Below are positions 4,225 through 10,560 of a stretch of 10,805 nucleotides of DNA, piece by piece. The DNA is taken from NCBI GenBank assembly GCA_021793635.1, contig JAJYSI010000064.1, positions 1 to 10,805 of the forward strand, given 5' to 3'. The notes beneath the pieces were generated by a model. It did no database searches. It was not told the DNA's origin and was given only the letters and a program-made list of their open reading frames with translations. How positions within the stretch are numbered: position 1 is the stretch's first letter; each line of letters begins with the position of its first letter. This DNA is from Bacteroidota bacterium (GTDB lineage: Bacteria > Bacteroidota > Ignavibacteria > Ignavibacteriales > Ignavibacteriaceae). The translations under genes and the position numbers were made by a program.

Positions 4225-4497
4225 TTAGGAGACTGCTTTAATTAAAGCGGGTTTGCTTATTTCATATAAGAAGTCAGGTGCTATATCATATTCATTGGGC
4301 CAGCATAAACCGCCCAGCATATCAAGCTCAAATTTCCGGATATATTCCTCGTCCTTCATTTCCGGAAAATCGGGCAAACTTTTGCTGCGCAAATAACCTA
4401 AATCTGCAATCCTGATTTCATTGTTCTCAAATTCAATTAATATTTTATAGTCTCCAATATATATTGCATTTACCGGTGTACTTATTCTATTTGTCAT
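4225..4497 (-). CDS. DUF2442 domain protein
   Basis: A 90-residue protein with the DUF2442 pattern: an N-terminal beta segment DYKILIEFENNEIRIADL (17-34), then a helix, and the family end LCWPNEYDIAPDFLYE (64-79), which matches the usual VxWPNGxDIAPxxLYE. GGAG lies 5 bases before the ATG. DUF2442 proteins are small and often encoded directly after a DUF4160 gene, a pair widely treated as a putative toxin-antitoxin module whose mechanism I do not know. Here the start lies 11 bp inside a broken DUF4160 frame, so the gene would be translationally coupled if the upstream gene were intact. The last residues are encoded over a palindrome, GCTTTAATTAAAGC. DUF2442 itself looks intact. Confidence 0.85.
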   Translation of the reverse strand: MTNRISTPVNAIYIGDYKILIEFENNEIRIADLGYLRSKSLPDFPEMKDEEYIRKFELDMLGGLCWPNEYDIAPDFLYEISKPALIKAVS

Positions 4498-5086: not shown

Positions 5087-5395
5087 TTAATTATTGAAAC
5101 CGCCTCTAAGCAATTTCAAAATCAATTCTTTTAATATTTCTTTTTTATCTTCCGGCACTAAAGAACATATACCGCATATATCTTTGTCTTTATTCTTATT
5201 TGAAGGCAGGGAGATTACAGCACCGGTTACTTTGCAGATTCTATGAATTACTTTCCCCGACGGTTCAACCTTCCCTCTCTCCAGCTTTGAATAATATTCC
5301 CTGCTGAGATCCAATTTAGCAGCGACTTCTTTCTTTATCAGCTTATTATCTTTGCGGTATTGACCAAGCAAACTTCCCCAAATATTCCCGCTCAT
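5087..5395 (-). CDS. XRE-family helix-turn-helix regulator
   Basis: A 102-residue protein with a single HTH_3/XRE domain at about residues 7-61. Helices 2 and 3 are read as IKKEVAAKLDLSREYYSKLE (20-39), followed by RGKVEPSGKVIHRICKVTGA, the usual pattern in which the recognition helix is SREYYSKLERG. A short C-terminal part has ICGICSLVPEDKK (73-85; C74 and C77 form a CxxC) and an amphipathic helix, perhaps for dimerisation or partner contact. GAGGTGA lies about 6 bases before the ATG. Two 17-bp palindromes lie 30-77 bp upstream and are its likely operators, which suggests autorepression. The antitoxin of a toxin-antitoxin pair is possible, but no toxin gene adjoins it. Confidence 0.85.
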   Translation of the reverse strand: MSGNIWGSLLGQYRKDNKLIKKEVAAKLDLSREYYSKLERGKVEPSGKVIHRICKVTGAVISLPSNKNKDKDICGICSLVPEDKKEILKELILKLLRGGFNN

Positions 5396-5424
5396 CTCTC
5401 ACCTCTTCAATTGTTTTGAAAAAT

Positions 5425-5472
5425 GTGAATCAATAGTTCACGTTTTCATTAAAATGTGAACTTCAGGTTCAC
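5425..5472 (-). promoter_or_regulatory. Two tandem 17-bp palindromic operators upstream of the XRE gene
   Basis: Site 1 at 5425-5441 reads GTGAATCAATAGTTCAC (one arm mismatch). Site 2 at 5456-5472 reads GTGAACTTCAGGTTCAC (perfect 6-5-6 arms). Both follow AATGT-type flanks. Their centres are 31 bp apart, about three helical turns, so dimers would bind on the same face of the DNA. The position just before an XRE gene supports an autoregulatory operator; binding is inferred. Confidence 0.75.
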
Positions 5473-5655
5473 GAGATTTTTATTGATTAAAGAAAATATT
5501 TTAAGTACGATTAAGCAGCGCAAATAAAAGTTTGTTAAGAAATTTTACTTCCGGTTAATTTAATTTTTATTGCTGTTTAGGCTCCATGTAAATTAATCAA
5601 ATTAGCAACCAAAGAAAACAATGCTCAAAATATTTTAAGACGTGGAAGCAAGTCT
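5473..5655. other. AT-rich segment before the 21-bp array
   Basis: No gene is visible. A 13-mer, AAAATATTTTAAG, occurs at 5493-5505 and 5627-5639, and again inside the array at 5791-5803. Two GCTC-starting words at 5581 and 5623 are 42 bp apart, so the 21-bp pattern may begin here and lose phase in the last 12 bp before 5656. Confidence 0.45.
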
Positions 5656-6180
5656 GCTTTAAAATTCCAAAGTATTGCTTTTGAAAAAAGTATGAGAGCT
5701 TAATCTTTAAAGACAGTATTTCTTAATGAATAATTAAAAGCTCTTATTAAAATTTGATGAGCAGCCTGGAAAATTCCCGGTGCATTGCATAAAATATTTT
5801 AAGCATTAATATGAAGCCCGAATGTTCTTTCAAAATGATTGAGAAATTAGCTAAGACATAGAAAAGCCTTGATTGAATTTTTGGGTACTATAAAAAGTAT
5901 TAAGACAGCTTTTAATTGAATTCAAAGAGCGCCCGGAACAAAAATGCAAGCTCTTCCAGGACTTAGAAAAGCTTTCCGAAGTCCCGGAGGGATTTACTGA
6001 AGACTTAGCAAAGCTTTTTGTATAACATGAAAAGCTCTCTTATGTCCTTAAGAAGCTTTTCCAGCTACTAAAAAAGCTTTCCCAGGTCTTCCAAAAGCTT
6101 TTCCAGGACTTAACAAAGCTTTATTAGGACTTGAGAAAGCTTTGTTAAGACTTAAGGAAGCTTATCCGGGAGGTTTAAGA
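5656..6180 (+). repeat. Array of 25 units of a 21-bp repeat in strict phase
   Basis: Cutting the sequence every 21 bases from 5656 gives 25 units; 21 of them begin with GC and 13 begin with GCT followed by T, with no net insertion or deletion over 525 bp. The consensus is GCTTTTCCAGGACTT followed by six mostly-A bases, so unit junctions read AAAGCTTT (palindromic, HindIII core). Units 20-25 (from 6055) are the most alike; units 3-12 are strongly diverged. Read in one frame, the units give a seven-residue repeat A-(F/L)-P-G-L-x-K ending R-V-K-N-stop at 6195, but at least ten units carry in-frame stop codons and no long frame survives on either strand. It may be a decayed repeat-protein gene or non-coding phased DNA, since 21 bp equals two helical turns. 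Confidence 0.85.
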
Positions 6181-6195
6181 AGGGTAAAAAATTGA

Positions 6196-6303
6196 TAAAA
6201 CAGCACAAAATCGATTAATTCAGATCAAAAACAAGGTTTTTGAGGTTGAAAAACTAACATGAACCGGAAAGAATCATCAATCACAAATCAAAAAAAAGCC
6301 TTG
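6196..6303 (+). promoter_or_regulatory. Leader region of the small basic protein gene
   Basis: Between the array and the ribosome binding site lies AT-rich DNA with a possible weak sigma-70 promoter: TTGATA at 6192-6197 and TTAATT at 6215-6220, spaced 17 bp. A short perfect inverted repeat, CAAAAAC-AAG-GTTTTTG, lies at 6226-6242. Both calls are tentative. A transcript could also begin inside or before the array and carry the repeats as a leader. Confidence 0.35.
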
Positions 6304-6314
6304 AAAGGAGGTGA
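6304..6314 (+). promoter_or_regulatory. Extended Shine-Dalgarno sequence AAAGGAGGTGA
   Basis: Eleven bases match the complement of the 16S rRNA 3' end almost perfectly and lie 6 bases before the ATG at 6321. This is much stronger than the weak or absent sites of several neighbours (for example the genes at 7535 and 7938) and predicts high translation. Confidence 0.85.
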
Positions 6315-6320
6315 AGACTA

Positions 6321-6704
6321 ATGGCATACGTAAAGAAAGGTACTACCGAGGTAGTCGATAATTCCAAAAAGAAACTTTCTGCAATGATTAAGATAGACGC
6401 CGGTAAAAATAAGACCATAGATTACGGCGAAGAAGGTAACTCGCTTACGGCAGAAGTTATGGCAGCTAAGCTTCAGGAATATGAAACAGCTAAAAAGGAA
6501 TACGACAGCGCCCTGGATTCATTTACTGAAAAACAAAACCTACTTGACGCAATTGAGGATACGCTTGGCGAATTTAATAAGCGTATACTTAAAAGTGCGG
6601 CAGGCAAGTTCAACCAGGAATCCGACGAGTACGAAATGCTCGGCGGGAAAAAGCCTTCAGATTGGAAGAAGCGCGCAAGCAAAAAGACGGCGCCTGCAAG
6701 CTGA
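6321..6704 (+). CDS. Small lysine-rich coiled-coil protein, unknown function
   Basis: A 127-residue soluble protein. The N-terminal 40 residues are basic and low in structure. A long charged helix from about 43 to 95 (LTAEVMAAKLQEYETAKKEY, then KQNLLDAIEDTLGEFNKRIL) has coiled-coil character. The end NQESDEYEMLGGKKPSDWKKRASKK is Lys-rich. The SDEYEMLGG ending followed by a basic tail is one I associate with uncharacterised small proteins in Bacteroidetes-like and other genomes, but I know no function. The basic tail suggests nucleic-acid contact (inference). No signal peptide or membrane helix. It has a very strong ribosome binding site and its own terminator, so it is a single-gene unit right after the 21-bp array. 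Confidence 0.85.
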   Translation: MAYVKKGTTEVVDNSKKKLSAMIKIDAGKNKTIDYGEEGNSLTAEVMAAKLQEYETAKKEYDSALDSFTEKQNLLDAIEDTLGEFNKRILKSAAGKFNQESDEYEMLGGKKPSDWKKRASKKTAPAS

Positions 6705-6727: not shown

Positions 6728-6779
6728 AAAGCACGCGTAATTGTTTTTATATCATATTCAATTACGGGTGCTTTTTTTT
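6728..6779 (+). terminator. Intrinsic terminator of the small basic protein gene
   Basis: Arms AAAGCACGCGTAATTG (6728-6743) and CAATTACGGGTGCTTT (6759-6774) pair over 16 positions with one G-G mismatch, enclosing a 15-nt loop, followed by a run of T to 6779. It begins 24 bp after the stop codon. Confidence 0.9.
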
Positions 6780-6889
6780 ATAAAGAGCAGAAGGTGCCGC
6801 TGTTTTATGTTCTACTTATTCCGGTATTCAGAATTAAGGGCTGCCTGTCTTTTACCATTGAGATGCATTGATGCAACGAATATTATGGA

Positions 6890-7240
6890 TCATCCAAGCA
6901 GTGATTCTGCAGGTATGTTATATTTTCTGTGAAGTTCTCTCATCATTTTAACGGTAAGCTCTCTTTTACCGTTCAGGATTTCGGAAGCACGGTTTTTCCC
7001 GCCGACAGTTTCTGCAATATCCGATTGATTTAACCCCAACTGTTCCATTCTGAATTTGATAGCTTCAATCGGATCGGGAGGAGCAATATTAAAATGTTTC
7101 TGTTCATATACTTCGACCAATGTAACTAATATTTCTAATTCATCACCTTCCGAAGTACCCGGTTTTGAGTTAAAAAGTACATCAATCCTTTTCAAAGCCG
7201 AGTCATAATCTCTTTTTGTCTTTATAGGCTTAATCTTCAT
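6890..7240 (-). CDS. higA: HigA-type antitoxin, XRE regulator
   Basis: A 116-residue protein. The N-terminal helical part has MKIKPIKTKRDYDSALKRID and EGDELEILVTLVEVYEQKHF, typical of HigA antitoxins paired with HigB. The C-terminal XRE domain is at about 58-110: PIEAIKFRMEQLGLNQSDIA, then GGKNRASEILNGKRELTVKM with the recognition helix at NRASEILNG. HigA binds and neutralises HigB and represses the operon. The ATG at 7240 was chosen over an in-frame ATG at 7258 because AGAGGAA lies 8 bases before it and it begins one base after the higB stop. Palindrome GTTCCC-N5-GGGAAC at the operon front is its likely operator. Confidence 0.92.
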   Translation of the reverse strand: MKIKPIKTKRDYDSALKRIDVLFNSKPGTSEGDELEILVTLVEVYEQKHFNIAPPDPIEAIKFRMEQLGLNQSDIAETVGGKNRASEILNGKRELTVKMMRELHRKYNIPAESLLG

Positions 7241-7241
7241 T

Positions 7242-7535
7242 TTAAATTTCCTCTGCATTTACTTTATCATATTGTTGATGCGTTCCAATGAATCTAATAT
7301 ACACGATTTTATAATTATAATTTACCGCCGCAATTAGTCTATAACTGTTTCCTTTAATATTGAACACAACCCTATTATTTCTTAAAAGACTTGCTGTCCT
7401 ATAAACTTTTACAACGTCTTCAGGCTTTTGCCAATCGGCTTTCTTAGCCTCGTAATACCATGATTTAAGAGGTTGTTCCGAATCCGGATGTTTTTTCCAG
7501 AATTCCTTTAAAGTCCTTATTGCTATTACTCTCAT
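7242..7535 (-). CDS. higB: HigB-type mRNA interferase toxin
   Basis: A 97-residue protein of the HigB toxin family (RelE-like fold). Recognisable segments are MRVIAIRTLKEFWKKHPDSE at the start, PLKSWYYEAKKADWQKPEDV (22-41), NNRVVFNIKGNSYRLI (53-68) and YIRFIGTHQQYDKV (79-92), with H86 and Y89 in the usual active-site region. Family members cut mRNA on ribosomes. The ATG at 7535 was taken, not an in-frame TTG at 7541, because the family starts at MRVI. The ribosome binding site is weak, whereas higA has a good one, which would favour antitoxin synthesis. Gene order toxin-antitoxin is the usual one for higBA. All conserved segments are present, so it is probably functional. Confidence 0.93.
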   Translation of the reverse strand: MRVIAIRTLKEFWKKHPDSEQPLKSWYYEAKKADWQKPEDVVKVYRTASLLRNNRVVFNIKGNSYRLIAAVNYNYKIVYIRFIGTHQQYDKVNAEEI

Positions 7536-7550
7536 ATTCAAATATAAAGA

Positions 7551-9305: not shown

Positions 9306-10448
9306 TTAATTATTTTTTGTAAACAGATTCATATACTCGACAAAGCCGAACAAGCGGTATCTCTTAGCACCGGTAATTTCAACAAGAATTCCAAGATTAA
9401 CAAAATCCTGTATTAAAGAATTCGCTGTTGCAGGCGTAATATTAAGTTTATTAGAGATATCATTTGAACTCATTAAAGGATTTGTATAAAGTGTATTAAT
9501 CAATTCTTTTGCTTTCGGAATCTTTTTCCCCAGCTTAACAATTTTCTCATTGTCGATTTTGTCTTTTAGTTTCAATATACCTTTAAATGTTTCTATACCG
9601 ATTGTACTTGTTTCAATAACAGCAACAAGAAAAAATTTAATCCAATGAATTAAATCATTTTTAATCCTAACTCTATCCAGGTTATCATAATAAATCGTCC
9701 GGTGTCTTTCAAAATAATCAGACAGATACAGAACCGGTTTTGAAAGCACACCTGCGTCTATAAGAAAAAGAGTTATTAACAGTCTGCCTATTCTGCCATT
9801 ACCATCAAGAAACGGATGGATGGTTTCAAATTGGTAATGAGCTACTGCAGCTTTAATTAAATCGGGTGTTTCAGTTTTTTCATTGTGCAAAAAATTTTCC
9901 AGGTCTCCCATAAGCTCATTTACATGTGTATGCGGAGGAGGAATAAACTTTGCATCATTAATAGTTGCACCTCCAATCCAGTTCTGGCTTTTTCTAAATT
10001 CGCCGGGTGCTTTATTCTCGCCTCTTACGCCGTGCATTAAAATTTTATGTGATTCTTTAAATAGCCTGGTTGATACCGGTACGGATATTAATTTTGAAAC
10101 GGAACTGTTCATGGCTTCAATATTATTCTGAACCTCTTTCCAATCGTCTTTCTTTTCAGGGTTTATTACATCGTCTTTTAACAGAGCCTCTTCAATATTG
10201 GTTTTAGTTCCTTCAATCTGACTGGATTTGGTTGCTTCTTTGACAACATGCATCCTTATGAATATCTCAACATCCGGTATGAAAAGAGAAAATGCATTAA
10301 GATTGCCAAGCTTTAAATTGGCTTCAGATAAAAGTGAGTTAACTTTGGGATCTTCCCATGTCCATTCATGGTTAATTTTATTTGGTATGAAGCTTTTATA
10401 CTTAAAATCCTGCTGATACCTGCCAGCCTTAAAATCTTCAATTTTCAT
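9306..10448 (-). CDS. Fic-family AMP transferase with winged-helix C-terminus
   Basis: A 380-residue protein. The N-terminal Fic_N-like region has an inhibitory motif, SSQIEG (75-80), matching [S/T]xxxE[G/N], with E79 predicted to block ATP (class II Fic). The catalytic motif HPFLDGNGRIGR is complete at 211-222, with H211 as the base and N217/R219/R222 in the phosphate-binding loop. The C-terminal region (about 310-368) is winged-helix-like: SSNDISNKLNITPATANSLI, then NLGILVEITGAKRYRLFGF. Fic enzymes transfer AMP (or a related group) to hydroxyls on target proteins. The architecture is a common standalone Fic layout; the target is unknown. The ATG at 10448 was chosen over an in-frame TTG at 10466. 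The ribosome binding site is weak. No antitoxin gene is needed, as inhibition is built in. Confidence 0.93.
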   Translation of the reverse strand: MKIEDFKAGRYQQDFKYKSFIPNKINHEWTWEDPKVNSLLSEANLKLGNLNAFSLFIPDVEIFIRMHVVKEATKSSQIEGTKTNIEEALLKDDVINPEKKDDWKEVQNNIEAMNSSVSKLISVPVSTRLFKESHKILMHGVRGENKAPGEFRKSQNWIGGATINDAKFIPPPHTHVNELMGDLENFLHNEKTETPDLIKAAVAHYQFETIHPFLDGNGRIGRLLITLFLIDAGVLSKPVLYLSDYFERHRTIYYDNLDRVRIKNDLIHWIKFFLVAVIETSTIGIETFKGILKLKDKIDNEKIVKLGKKIPKAKELINTLYTNPLMSSNDISNKLNITPATANSLIQDFVNLGILVEITGAKRYRLFGFVEYMNLFTKNN

Positions 10449-10560
10449 TCTTTTTCTGAATTTCAATTAAACTAAGTGAACAGCTTATTTTAATTTAATG
10501 CTTTTCCTTGAAATAAACCAAATCTAATTTTAACTTATTAATCAGCGACGTCTCAAATAT

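Follow-up and report, generated by a model that had tools for sequence, protein, structure and literature searches.

Plasmid iterons are direct repeats about two helical turns apart that lie beside the gene of the Rep protein binding them, and the parC unit of plasmid pSK41 measures about 20 bp. In type II partition systems such as that of pSK41, the tandem parC repeats are located upstream of the operon and a dimer of the small protein ParR occupies each repeat, the whole forming a superhelical nucleoprotein complex that represses the promoter (PMC5016525). In ToxIN, a repeat array is found 5′ of a small protein gene, and the length of the repeat monomer is conserved while its sequence diverges; the ToxIN examples comprise 34-36 nt repeats in 2.8-5.5 copies, with a Rho-independent terminator between array and gene (PMC5086642). 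Intergenic direct repeats of the heptamer TAACTGA have been described in Beggiatoaceae, Cyanobacteria and Bacteroidetes and often precede start codons in Beggiatoaceae (PMC4679880).

The locus described here belongs to a member of the Ignavibacteriaceae (Bacteroidota) and was analysed within a stretch of 10,805 bp, hereafter the window. It comprises an array of 25 phased 21-bp units (5656..6180, no strand assigned; 525 bp) upstream of a gene for a small protein of 127 aa (6321..6704, + strand), the founding member of what we call family A. The conserved half of the array has a dyad-symmetric consensus, AAGACTTAAAAAAGCTTTTCG (dyad z 5.9). Array and gene are separated by a spacer (6181..6320, +) without a terminator-like site, within which a likely ribosome-binding site, AAAGGAGGTGA, was recognized by eye at 6304..6314 (+). 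A probable terminator hairpin followed by a T-run, also seen by eye, lies after the gene at 6731..6780 (+) and is absent from the output of the terminator scan, which permits loops of 3-8. We read the array as a series of sites, many of them with dyad symmetry and spaced exactly two helical turns from one another, to which the adjoining small helical protein would bind, and we put the probability of this reading at about 0.4.

The nearest working counterpart is the parC/ParR centromere: here too a repeat array accompanies a small-protein gene, whose product is a candidate binder of the array. The differences are that no ParM, ParA or TubZ motor gene was found among the 10 window proteins scanned, that no ribbon-helix-helix is apparent in the all-helix AF2 model of family A, and that the present elements occur in many chromosomal copies, with an array mostly 3′ of the gene in a second protein family (family C) and with arrays that have no gene at all. 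Iterons differ in their partner, as family A proteins, 110-130 aa long, show no Rep profile in Pfam or NCBIfam and reach up to 15 matches in one genome, some of these being fragments. The likeness to ToxIN consists in the position of the repeats, on the 5′ side of a gene for a small protein, and in a length that is kept while the sequence diverges, but the units here measure 21 bp, occur in about 5-25 copies and are followed by no spacer terminators beyond chance, and the protein, with its helical model, has no endoribonuclease match of the ToxN/CptN/TenpN kind above the Pfam or NCBIfam cut-off. The TAACTGA (STRR) heptamers are also intergenic direct repeats from the same phyla; their unit is a fixed 7 bp, whereas the arrays here have neither a 7-bp sub-period nor a common sequence, and a seven-bp origin was rejected (mean z 0.02 at lag 7 over 84 arrays). 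Unlike CRISPR arrays, the units are plain tandem repeats and do not alternate with unrelated spacers. An earlier note on this DNA, made from the letters alone, knew of no described system with such a layout, and we found none in an open-licence library of papers, outside which most subscription-journal papers lie. Judged from sequence, the arrays have the look of DNA landing strips for their small proteins, of a kind not yet described and present in two distant bacterial groups.

The strict phase of the window array, as described in the earlier note, is borne out, and the 25 units, decayed ones included, follow one another without net insertion or deletion. Matches at lags 21, 42 and 63 taken together exceed those of dinucleotide shuffles with z 15.4 in units 13-25 (5908..6180, no strand assigned), the well-kept portion, and with z 4.6 in the decayed units 1-12, a value that 0 of 2000 shuffles reached; the possibility, raised in the note, that units 1-12 are no more phased than shuffled sequence is thus answered in favour of phasing. 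Among controls, the 252 bp left of the array give z 0.9 and the 6321 gene gives z 3.4 (p 0.0015), so that the value for units 1-12 on its own stands little above that of a coding gene, because these lags are multiples of three and codon structure counts. Stronger evidence is provided by a profile built from units 13-25 alone, for which the predicted phase ranks first of 21 in units 1-12 and also in units 1-6 and 7-12 taken separately. Identity increases towards the right end, as noted earlier (lag-21 match from 0.36 to 0.54), and the AAAGCTTT junctions named in the same note are clear in units 13-25, patchy to the eye in units 1-12 and not general beyond the close relatives of the window. The left edge of the array is soft, since the in-phase register also gives the highest score in the 126 bp before 5656, at a non-significant level (p 0.07), and Tandem Repeats Finder (TRF) alone detects only the right end, 6053-6171. 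In comparison with loci L001 and L002, the 525 bp array shows 0 and 1 gaps, and 374 bp of flank 3 and 2; phase conservation between orthologues is therefore weak evidence, as indels are few in the flanks too.

The 6321 protein is predicted to be helical, with a basic tail and a C-terminal ESDEYEMLGG motif. A search of 5.8 billion proteins added nine relatives to the query, each without a name or annotated as hypothetical, and of 67 candidate stretches from a scan of GTDB genomes 6 held a relative, in four Bacteroidetes MAGs and in two cyanobacteria, the two cyanobacterial relatives having a common C-terminal (D/E)SDEYEM.GG.R.S.R motif. In phylum samples searched at E 1e-5, with the starting genomes included, family A is distributed over Bacteroidota and Cyanobacteria, with 16 positive genomes among 194 cyanobacteria, of which, judged by best E-value, 10 hold close members and the other 6 nothing but distant ones, and 13 among 247 Bacteroidota, of which 3 hold close members and 10 a distant subfamily alone. 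The AlphaFold model (pLDDT 83) consists of a 20-residue helix, a 54-residue helix and the basic tail, and found no convincing match among solved structures, whether by PDB folds or by PDB sequences, the latter giving weak matches only. Pfam and NCBIfam hold nothing above cut-off for the protein families treated here, PADLOC and PHROGs gave weak matches only, and the precomputed label PF27821.1 carried by three homologues was not reproduced by the Pfam scan. No relatives of the 6321 protein were found on viral contigs, and a cyanobacterial member has no phage relatives and one plasmid record, from Kovacikia minuta. Two ORFs that we take to be DUF559-like endonucleases accompany family A genes, one between array and gene (L053:498-884, -, gene orientation) and one just past the gene (L005:3411-3794, -).

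The array is linked to these genes across the family. A first survey covered 122 loci, 120 of them usable, and detected a significant tandem array in 99, with periods of 21 bp (89 arrays), 20 (4), 40 (2), 31 (2), 24 (1) and 15 (1); second-best periods of 14 and 28 are artefacts of testing multiples. Among close family A members, the 700 bp upstream of the gene contain a tandem array in 83 of 92 cases, with a period of 21 in 77, 20 in 3, a reading of 31 in 2 and a reading of 35 in 1. The two readings of 31 reflect a 62-bp super-unit of about three units, and that of 35 (L114) a different repeat that scores best within 700 bp, so that a 20/21-bp array, two times as the 62-bp super-unit, is present within this distance in 82 of the 92. 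A 20/21-bp array lies 0.66-1.2 kb upstream at L053, L058, L083, L106 and L114. Within 1.2 kb, then, an array precedes 87 of the 92 close members, in support of the link between such arrays and homologues of the 6321 gene that the earlier note proposed to test; none was counted at L018, L026 (weak 21-bp peak), L066, L120 (40-bp repeat far upstream) and L123. Relative to the start codon, a typical array of the close family extends from about -400 to about -170. Half of the distant-subfamily loci, 12 of 24, have an array within 700 bp upstream (11 of period 21, 1 of period 18). These counts of 92 and 24 leave out fragments (L010, L019, L032, L033, L035, L096), duplicates or non-members (L006-L009, L011, L012, L064, L077, L078) and also L022, L024, L025 and L027; L025 is not a family member, and the family members L022, L024 and L027, together with L156 and L157, have 21-bp arrays too.

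Some loci depart from this pattern in their own ways. The Bacteroidota loci L067-L069 and L071-L076, whose proteins belong to the distant subfamily and carry ..GDDSDEITxLGMKKKSERRYGRP, have no array passing the threshold; the best period at L067, L072, L073 and L074 is nonetheless 21 bp, and arrays may have been lost or have decayed in this group. Super-units of 62 bp, made of about three pieces of 20-21 bp, were seen at L102, L109 and L145:14686-14972 and are alike across cyanobacterial genomes. TAnnTTTG, the Bacteroidota promoter motif, was rejected as a candidate, as no more than 3 of 13 loci have it upstream in the orientation of the gene.

The length of the unit is kept while its sequence turns over. 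Over 78 arrays, unit agreement between genomes is 0.769 at protein identities of at least 80% and 0.56 at 60-80%, and falls below 60% identity to 0.47, 0.45 and 0.44, against 0.445 for shuffled units; for proteins 45-60% identical, the value is 0.467 against the same 0.445. Unit sequences are unrelated once the proteins are less than 60% identical, and the period is still 21 bp (20 bp in one clade). Consensus units are of AAAGCTTT types in the window group and of ATATAAG types in L004, and some from cyanobacteria contain GCGATCGC (L005), GAACACAAGTCC (L092) or CGGGAGCGGTC (L097). Arrays of 20 bp (L037, L039, L040, L053) and of 22 bp (L231, L235) occur as well, and the periods found beside family A and two further families, B and C, namely 21 and in some cases 20 or 22 bp, are all close to two helical turns.

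Arrays of this kind are not exclusive to the family A gene, as families B and C have them and others are orphans. Two arrays in Bacteroidota control DNA touch genes of other small proteins, and families C and B (L218:3379-4248, L206:9532-10664, L220-L238) show 21-22 bp arrays, in most cases on the 3′ side of the gene. Family C (157 aa) occurs in 13 of 247 genomes, and its array is located 34-719 bp past the matched gene end in 11 of 16 loci, nine of these downstream arrays having a period of 21 and two, both in G401, a period of 22; as exceptions, L223 has a 21-bp array upstream and none was counted at L222, L226, L228 and L230. At E 0.001 the protein collection yields 1900 relatives of this family, the best 120 of which include Flavobacterium, Cyclobacteriaceae, Ignavibacteriae and Calditrichaceae; the modelled family C protein is helical, one of its helices measuring 52 residues. 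Family B (246 aa) is represented by four loci, with two arrays downstream (that of the query included), one upstream and one unreadable. In the survey of families B and C, L239 was read in a frame containing stops and does not enter the assessment. Significant dyads (p<0.05) were found in 8 of 11 arrays of family C and in neither of the 2 downstream arrays of family B. At L224, half-units of the family C array flip, to the eye, at +66..+290 past the gene (CCTAC/GTAGG, CTTCC/GGAAG), and the unit junctions are bridged by palindromes as long as about 20 bp. The proposal that A and C are homologues was rejected (hhalign probability 0.5%), and B and C are not detectably related (0.2%); B and A align weakly over 69 columns, which cover most of A, at 0.7% (E 0.08), with their C-terminal YGxxSxxY stretches paired, and may be remote kin.

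Background DNA amounting to 800 kb contained 10 arrays of period 21, 4 of period 42 and 1 of period 22. Six of the period-21 arrays came from 400 kb of two cyanobacterial genomes, where TRF reported 8 of this period, and four from 400 kb of two Bacteroidota genomes. Control DNA also holds arrays of other periods, e.g. 14, 15, 24-27, 34, 39 and 45, so that these genomes produce repeats of many kinds. None of the ORFs listed beside the control period-21 arrays was family A-like by eye. When six control cyanobacterial arrays were compared with the 21-bp units of family A, one matched the cis unit of its own genome (19/21) and another the unit of a different genome (17/21), the remaining four being not above shuffles. 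The L092 unit is present at 8 places of its own genome, G074, besides the cis array, and at one further place in G131, with no copy in 4 of the 6 genomes searched. To the eye, some places seem to be decayed copies: at L160 the array is intact and the gene behind it truncated, and at L161 a spacer is left and no gene. Other places with this unit show neither spacer nor gene remnants. G003, which is related to the window organism, has two AAAGCTTT orphan arrays, C118 and C147, besides its cis array. All three contain AAGCTT triplets at 21-bp intervals, family A is absent from the listed neighbours of C118 and C147, and 23 of the 24 forward matches are spaced by exactly 21 bp with 14-28 bp allowed. 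Triplet arrays of this type are confined to the cis position in G001 and G002 and absent from G004, and the reversed control pattern gave 1, 10, 6 and 1 forward matches in G001-G004. The 10 matches of G002, the genome of L002, are TTCGAA triplets 14-28 bp apart and perhaps represent an array of another unit. A gene flanking an orphan array of G003 has no match in G001 or G002. The same G003 carries a family A copy (L022) with several stops near its start and a good 21-bp array.

The strongest rival to the binding-site reading, which we nevertheless consider unlikely, is that the arrays are bacterial satellite DNA, which would spread, grow and become uniform through slippage and recombination, with array and gene duplicating as one unit, the small genes as fellow travellers and a unit length that is inherited, not selected. 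It would readily accommodate the array-wide variants at three loci with matching flanks, whose units are homogenized to mostly AATACG (L118), AACACG (L116) and AAAACG (L121), as well as the decayed-looking L160 and L161, the orphan arrays with the L092 unit and, by extrapolation, a number of arrays exceeding that of family A genes. It does not account, however, for the association of arrays with two or more unrelated protein families, or for the rarity of any other unit length next to these genes, and homogenizing slippage would not yield an array such as that of the window, which is in phase despite heavy divergence of its units. Dyad enrichment also counts against it: relative to column-permuted profiles, 33 of 88 family A arrays have a dyad at p<0.05 and 20 of 88 at p<0.01, that of the other 55 being not significant. 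Such symmetry could also come from transcription of the array into a repeat RNA, which would bind the protein or hold it in check, in the manner of a type III toxin-antitoxin system or as an RNA scaffold, an explanation that we regard as quite improbable. The 5′ position of the array relative to a small basic protein gene would suit it, as would two features of the window's relatives, in which 9 of 10 arrays have a better predicted fold than their column permutations (the window, L001-L004, L016, L017, L020 and L021, with z from -2.5 to -4.2; L015 being the exception) and the stem mismatches of ten loci lean towards G-T (96 vs 50), a lean that is weaker over 12 Bacteroidota loci under a wider stem rule (133 vs 101; 8 of 12 above control). 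Yet the gain in folding is equal on both strands, modest over all 41 arrays (mean z -1.1 and -1.3) and not significant in L065 and L070, two other Bacteroidota loci, and unit order is without effect on folding (30 arrays, mean z -0.2 and -0.3), by which a long-range RNA fold was rejected. Mismatches in all arrays show no overall preference, with 402 G-T against 367 A-C and 48 of 100 arrays above control, and family C has fewer G-T than A-C (63 vs 76; 2 of 10 above control); terminators are found in 4 of 78 array-gene spacers against 2.6 expected, and in that of the window not at all. The balance of mismatches, the indifference to unit order and the absence of terminators speak against an RNA origin of the dyad symmetry. 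Rfam is empty at the window array, its one match in the window lying elsewhere and being a chance one, and an array that is found 5′ of the gene in family A, mostly 3′ in family C, on either side in family B, or alone is more readily understood as a DNA site than as a leader RNA.

Two further explanations were offered in the earlier note. Curved DNA, in which phased A-tracts bend the promoter region, agrees with the window, where AAAGCTTT and A-runs recur each 21 bp, but fails as a common principle, with an A4/T4-type tract in only 27 of 88 units, some units GC-rich and units such as CGGGAGCGGTCTGCCTCGTGC (L097) in existence; we hold it to be very unlikely. We give almost no credence to the other, a decayed gene for a seven-residue repeat protein. 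It draws on 21 being a multiple of three, on some near-perfect arrays that are open in several frames and on the L003 array, which by eye encodes a coiled-coil-like heptad without a start codon, and it founders on the 20-bp and 22-bp arrays, which are incompatible with a reading frame, on the stop codons in all six frames of the window array (7-15 per frame) and on the open frames of the arrays, which exceeded those of column-permuted copies in 0 of 88 cases (p<0.05). A guide array directed against its own gene or flanks was tried separately and rejected, with no excess of matches over 88 arrays.

Cooperative binding by a dimeric or polymeric protein is what best fits the two-turn spacing, the tolerated variety of units, the frequent dyads and the position of arrays on either side of the gene, and the same-face protein sites proposed in the earlier note are the leading candidate among its options. 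We infer that the linked protein binds the array and oligomerizes, and the purposes named here for the complex are inferred with it. Dimers or higher oligomers would line up on one face of the helix and form a regular nucleoprotein stretch. An array beside its own gene would at least regulate that gene, as an autoregulatory site, and further arrays with a matching unit in the same genome would be places that the protein joins or marks, orphan arrays being such further targets. Length would be conserved because it sets the spacing of the protein subunits, and the unit sequence, homogenized within each array, would drift together with the protein. PDB fold searches revealed no recognizable DNA-binding fold in the family A or family C model. 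This counts against the binding-site row, as does the faster turnover of the units than of the proteins, which is odd for a sequence-specific binder. On the same side stand the 55 of 88 family A arrays whose dyad is not significant, the four of six control arrays that do not exceed shuffles, the four of six genomes that lack the L092 unit, and the arrays of other periods in the control DNA.

A broader proposition, which we put forward as tentative and doubtful, is that satellite-like arrays with a two-turn unit, each coupled to one small helical protein out of several kinds, of which two or more are unrelated, constitute a widespread and undescribed class of bacterial chromosomal elements, in which cooperative assembly would be guided by spacing more than by sequence and would link distant array loci. 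The class may be likened to the nucleosome-length satellites that mark eukaryotic centromeres. If the proposition is true, dozens of regularly spaced arrays would be present per genome, as extrapolated from the 10 in 800 kb, and an overlooked layer of chromosome organisation or gene control would be at hand. Annotation has missed the arrays because their spacing is conserved and their sequence is not; such elements are found by a periodicity scan, not by a sequence search, and for many arrays a candidate partner is encoded close by.

In the window, the 6321 gene stands alone, about 140 bp past the end of the array, and is flanked by a divergent XRE-type regulator gene upstream (5087-5395) and by a HigB/HigA-like pair downstream (6890-7541). 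Other accessory genes of the window encode DUF433 (577-792), DUF2442 (4225-4497) and Fic (9306-10466) proteins. Two palindromes of the GTGAA(C/T)...GTTCAC type at 5424-5473, before the XRE gene, are kept in L001 and L002 and are probably operators of the XRE regulator itself. The left flank that contains them is more conserved than the array itself.
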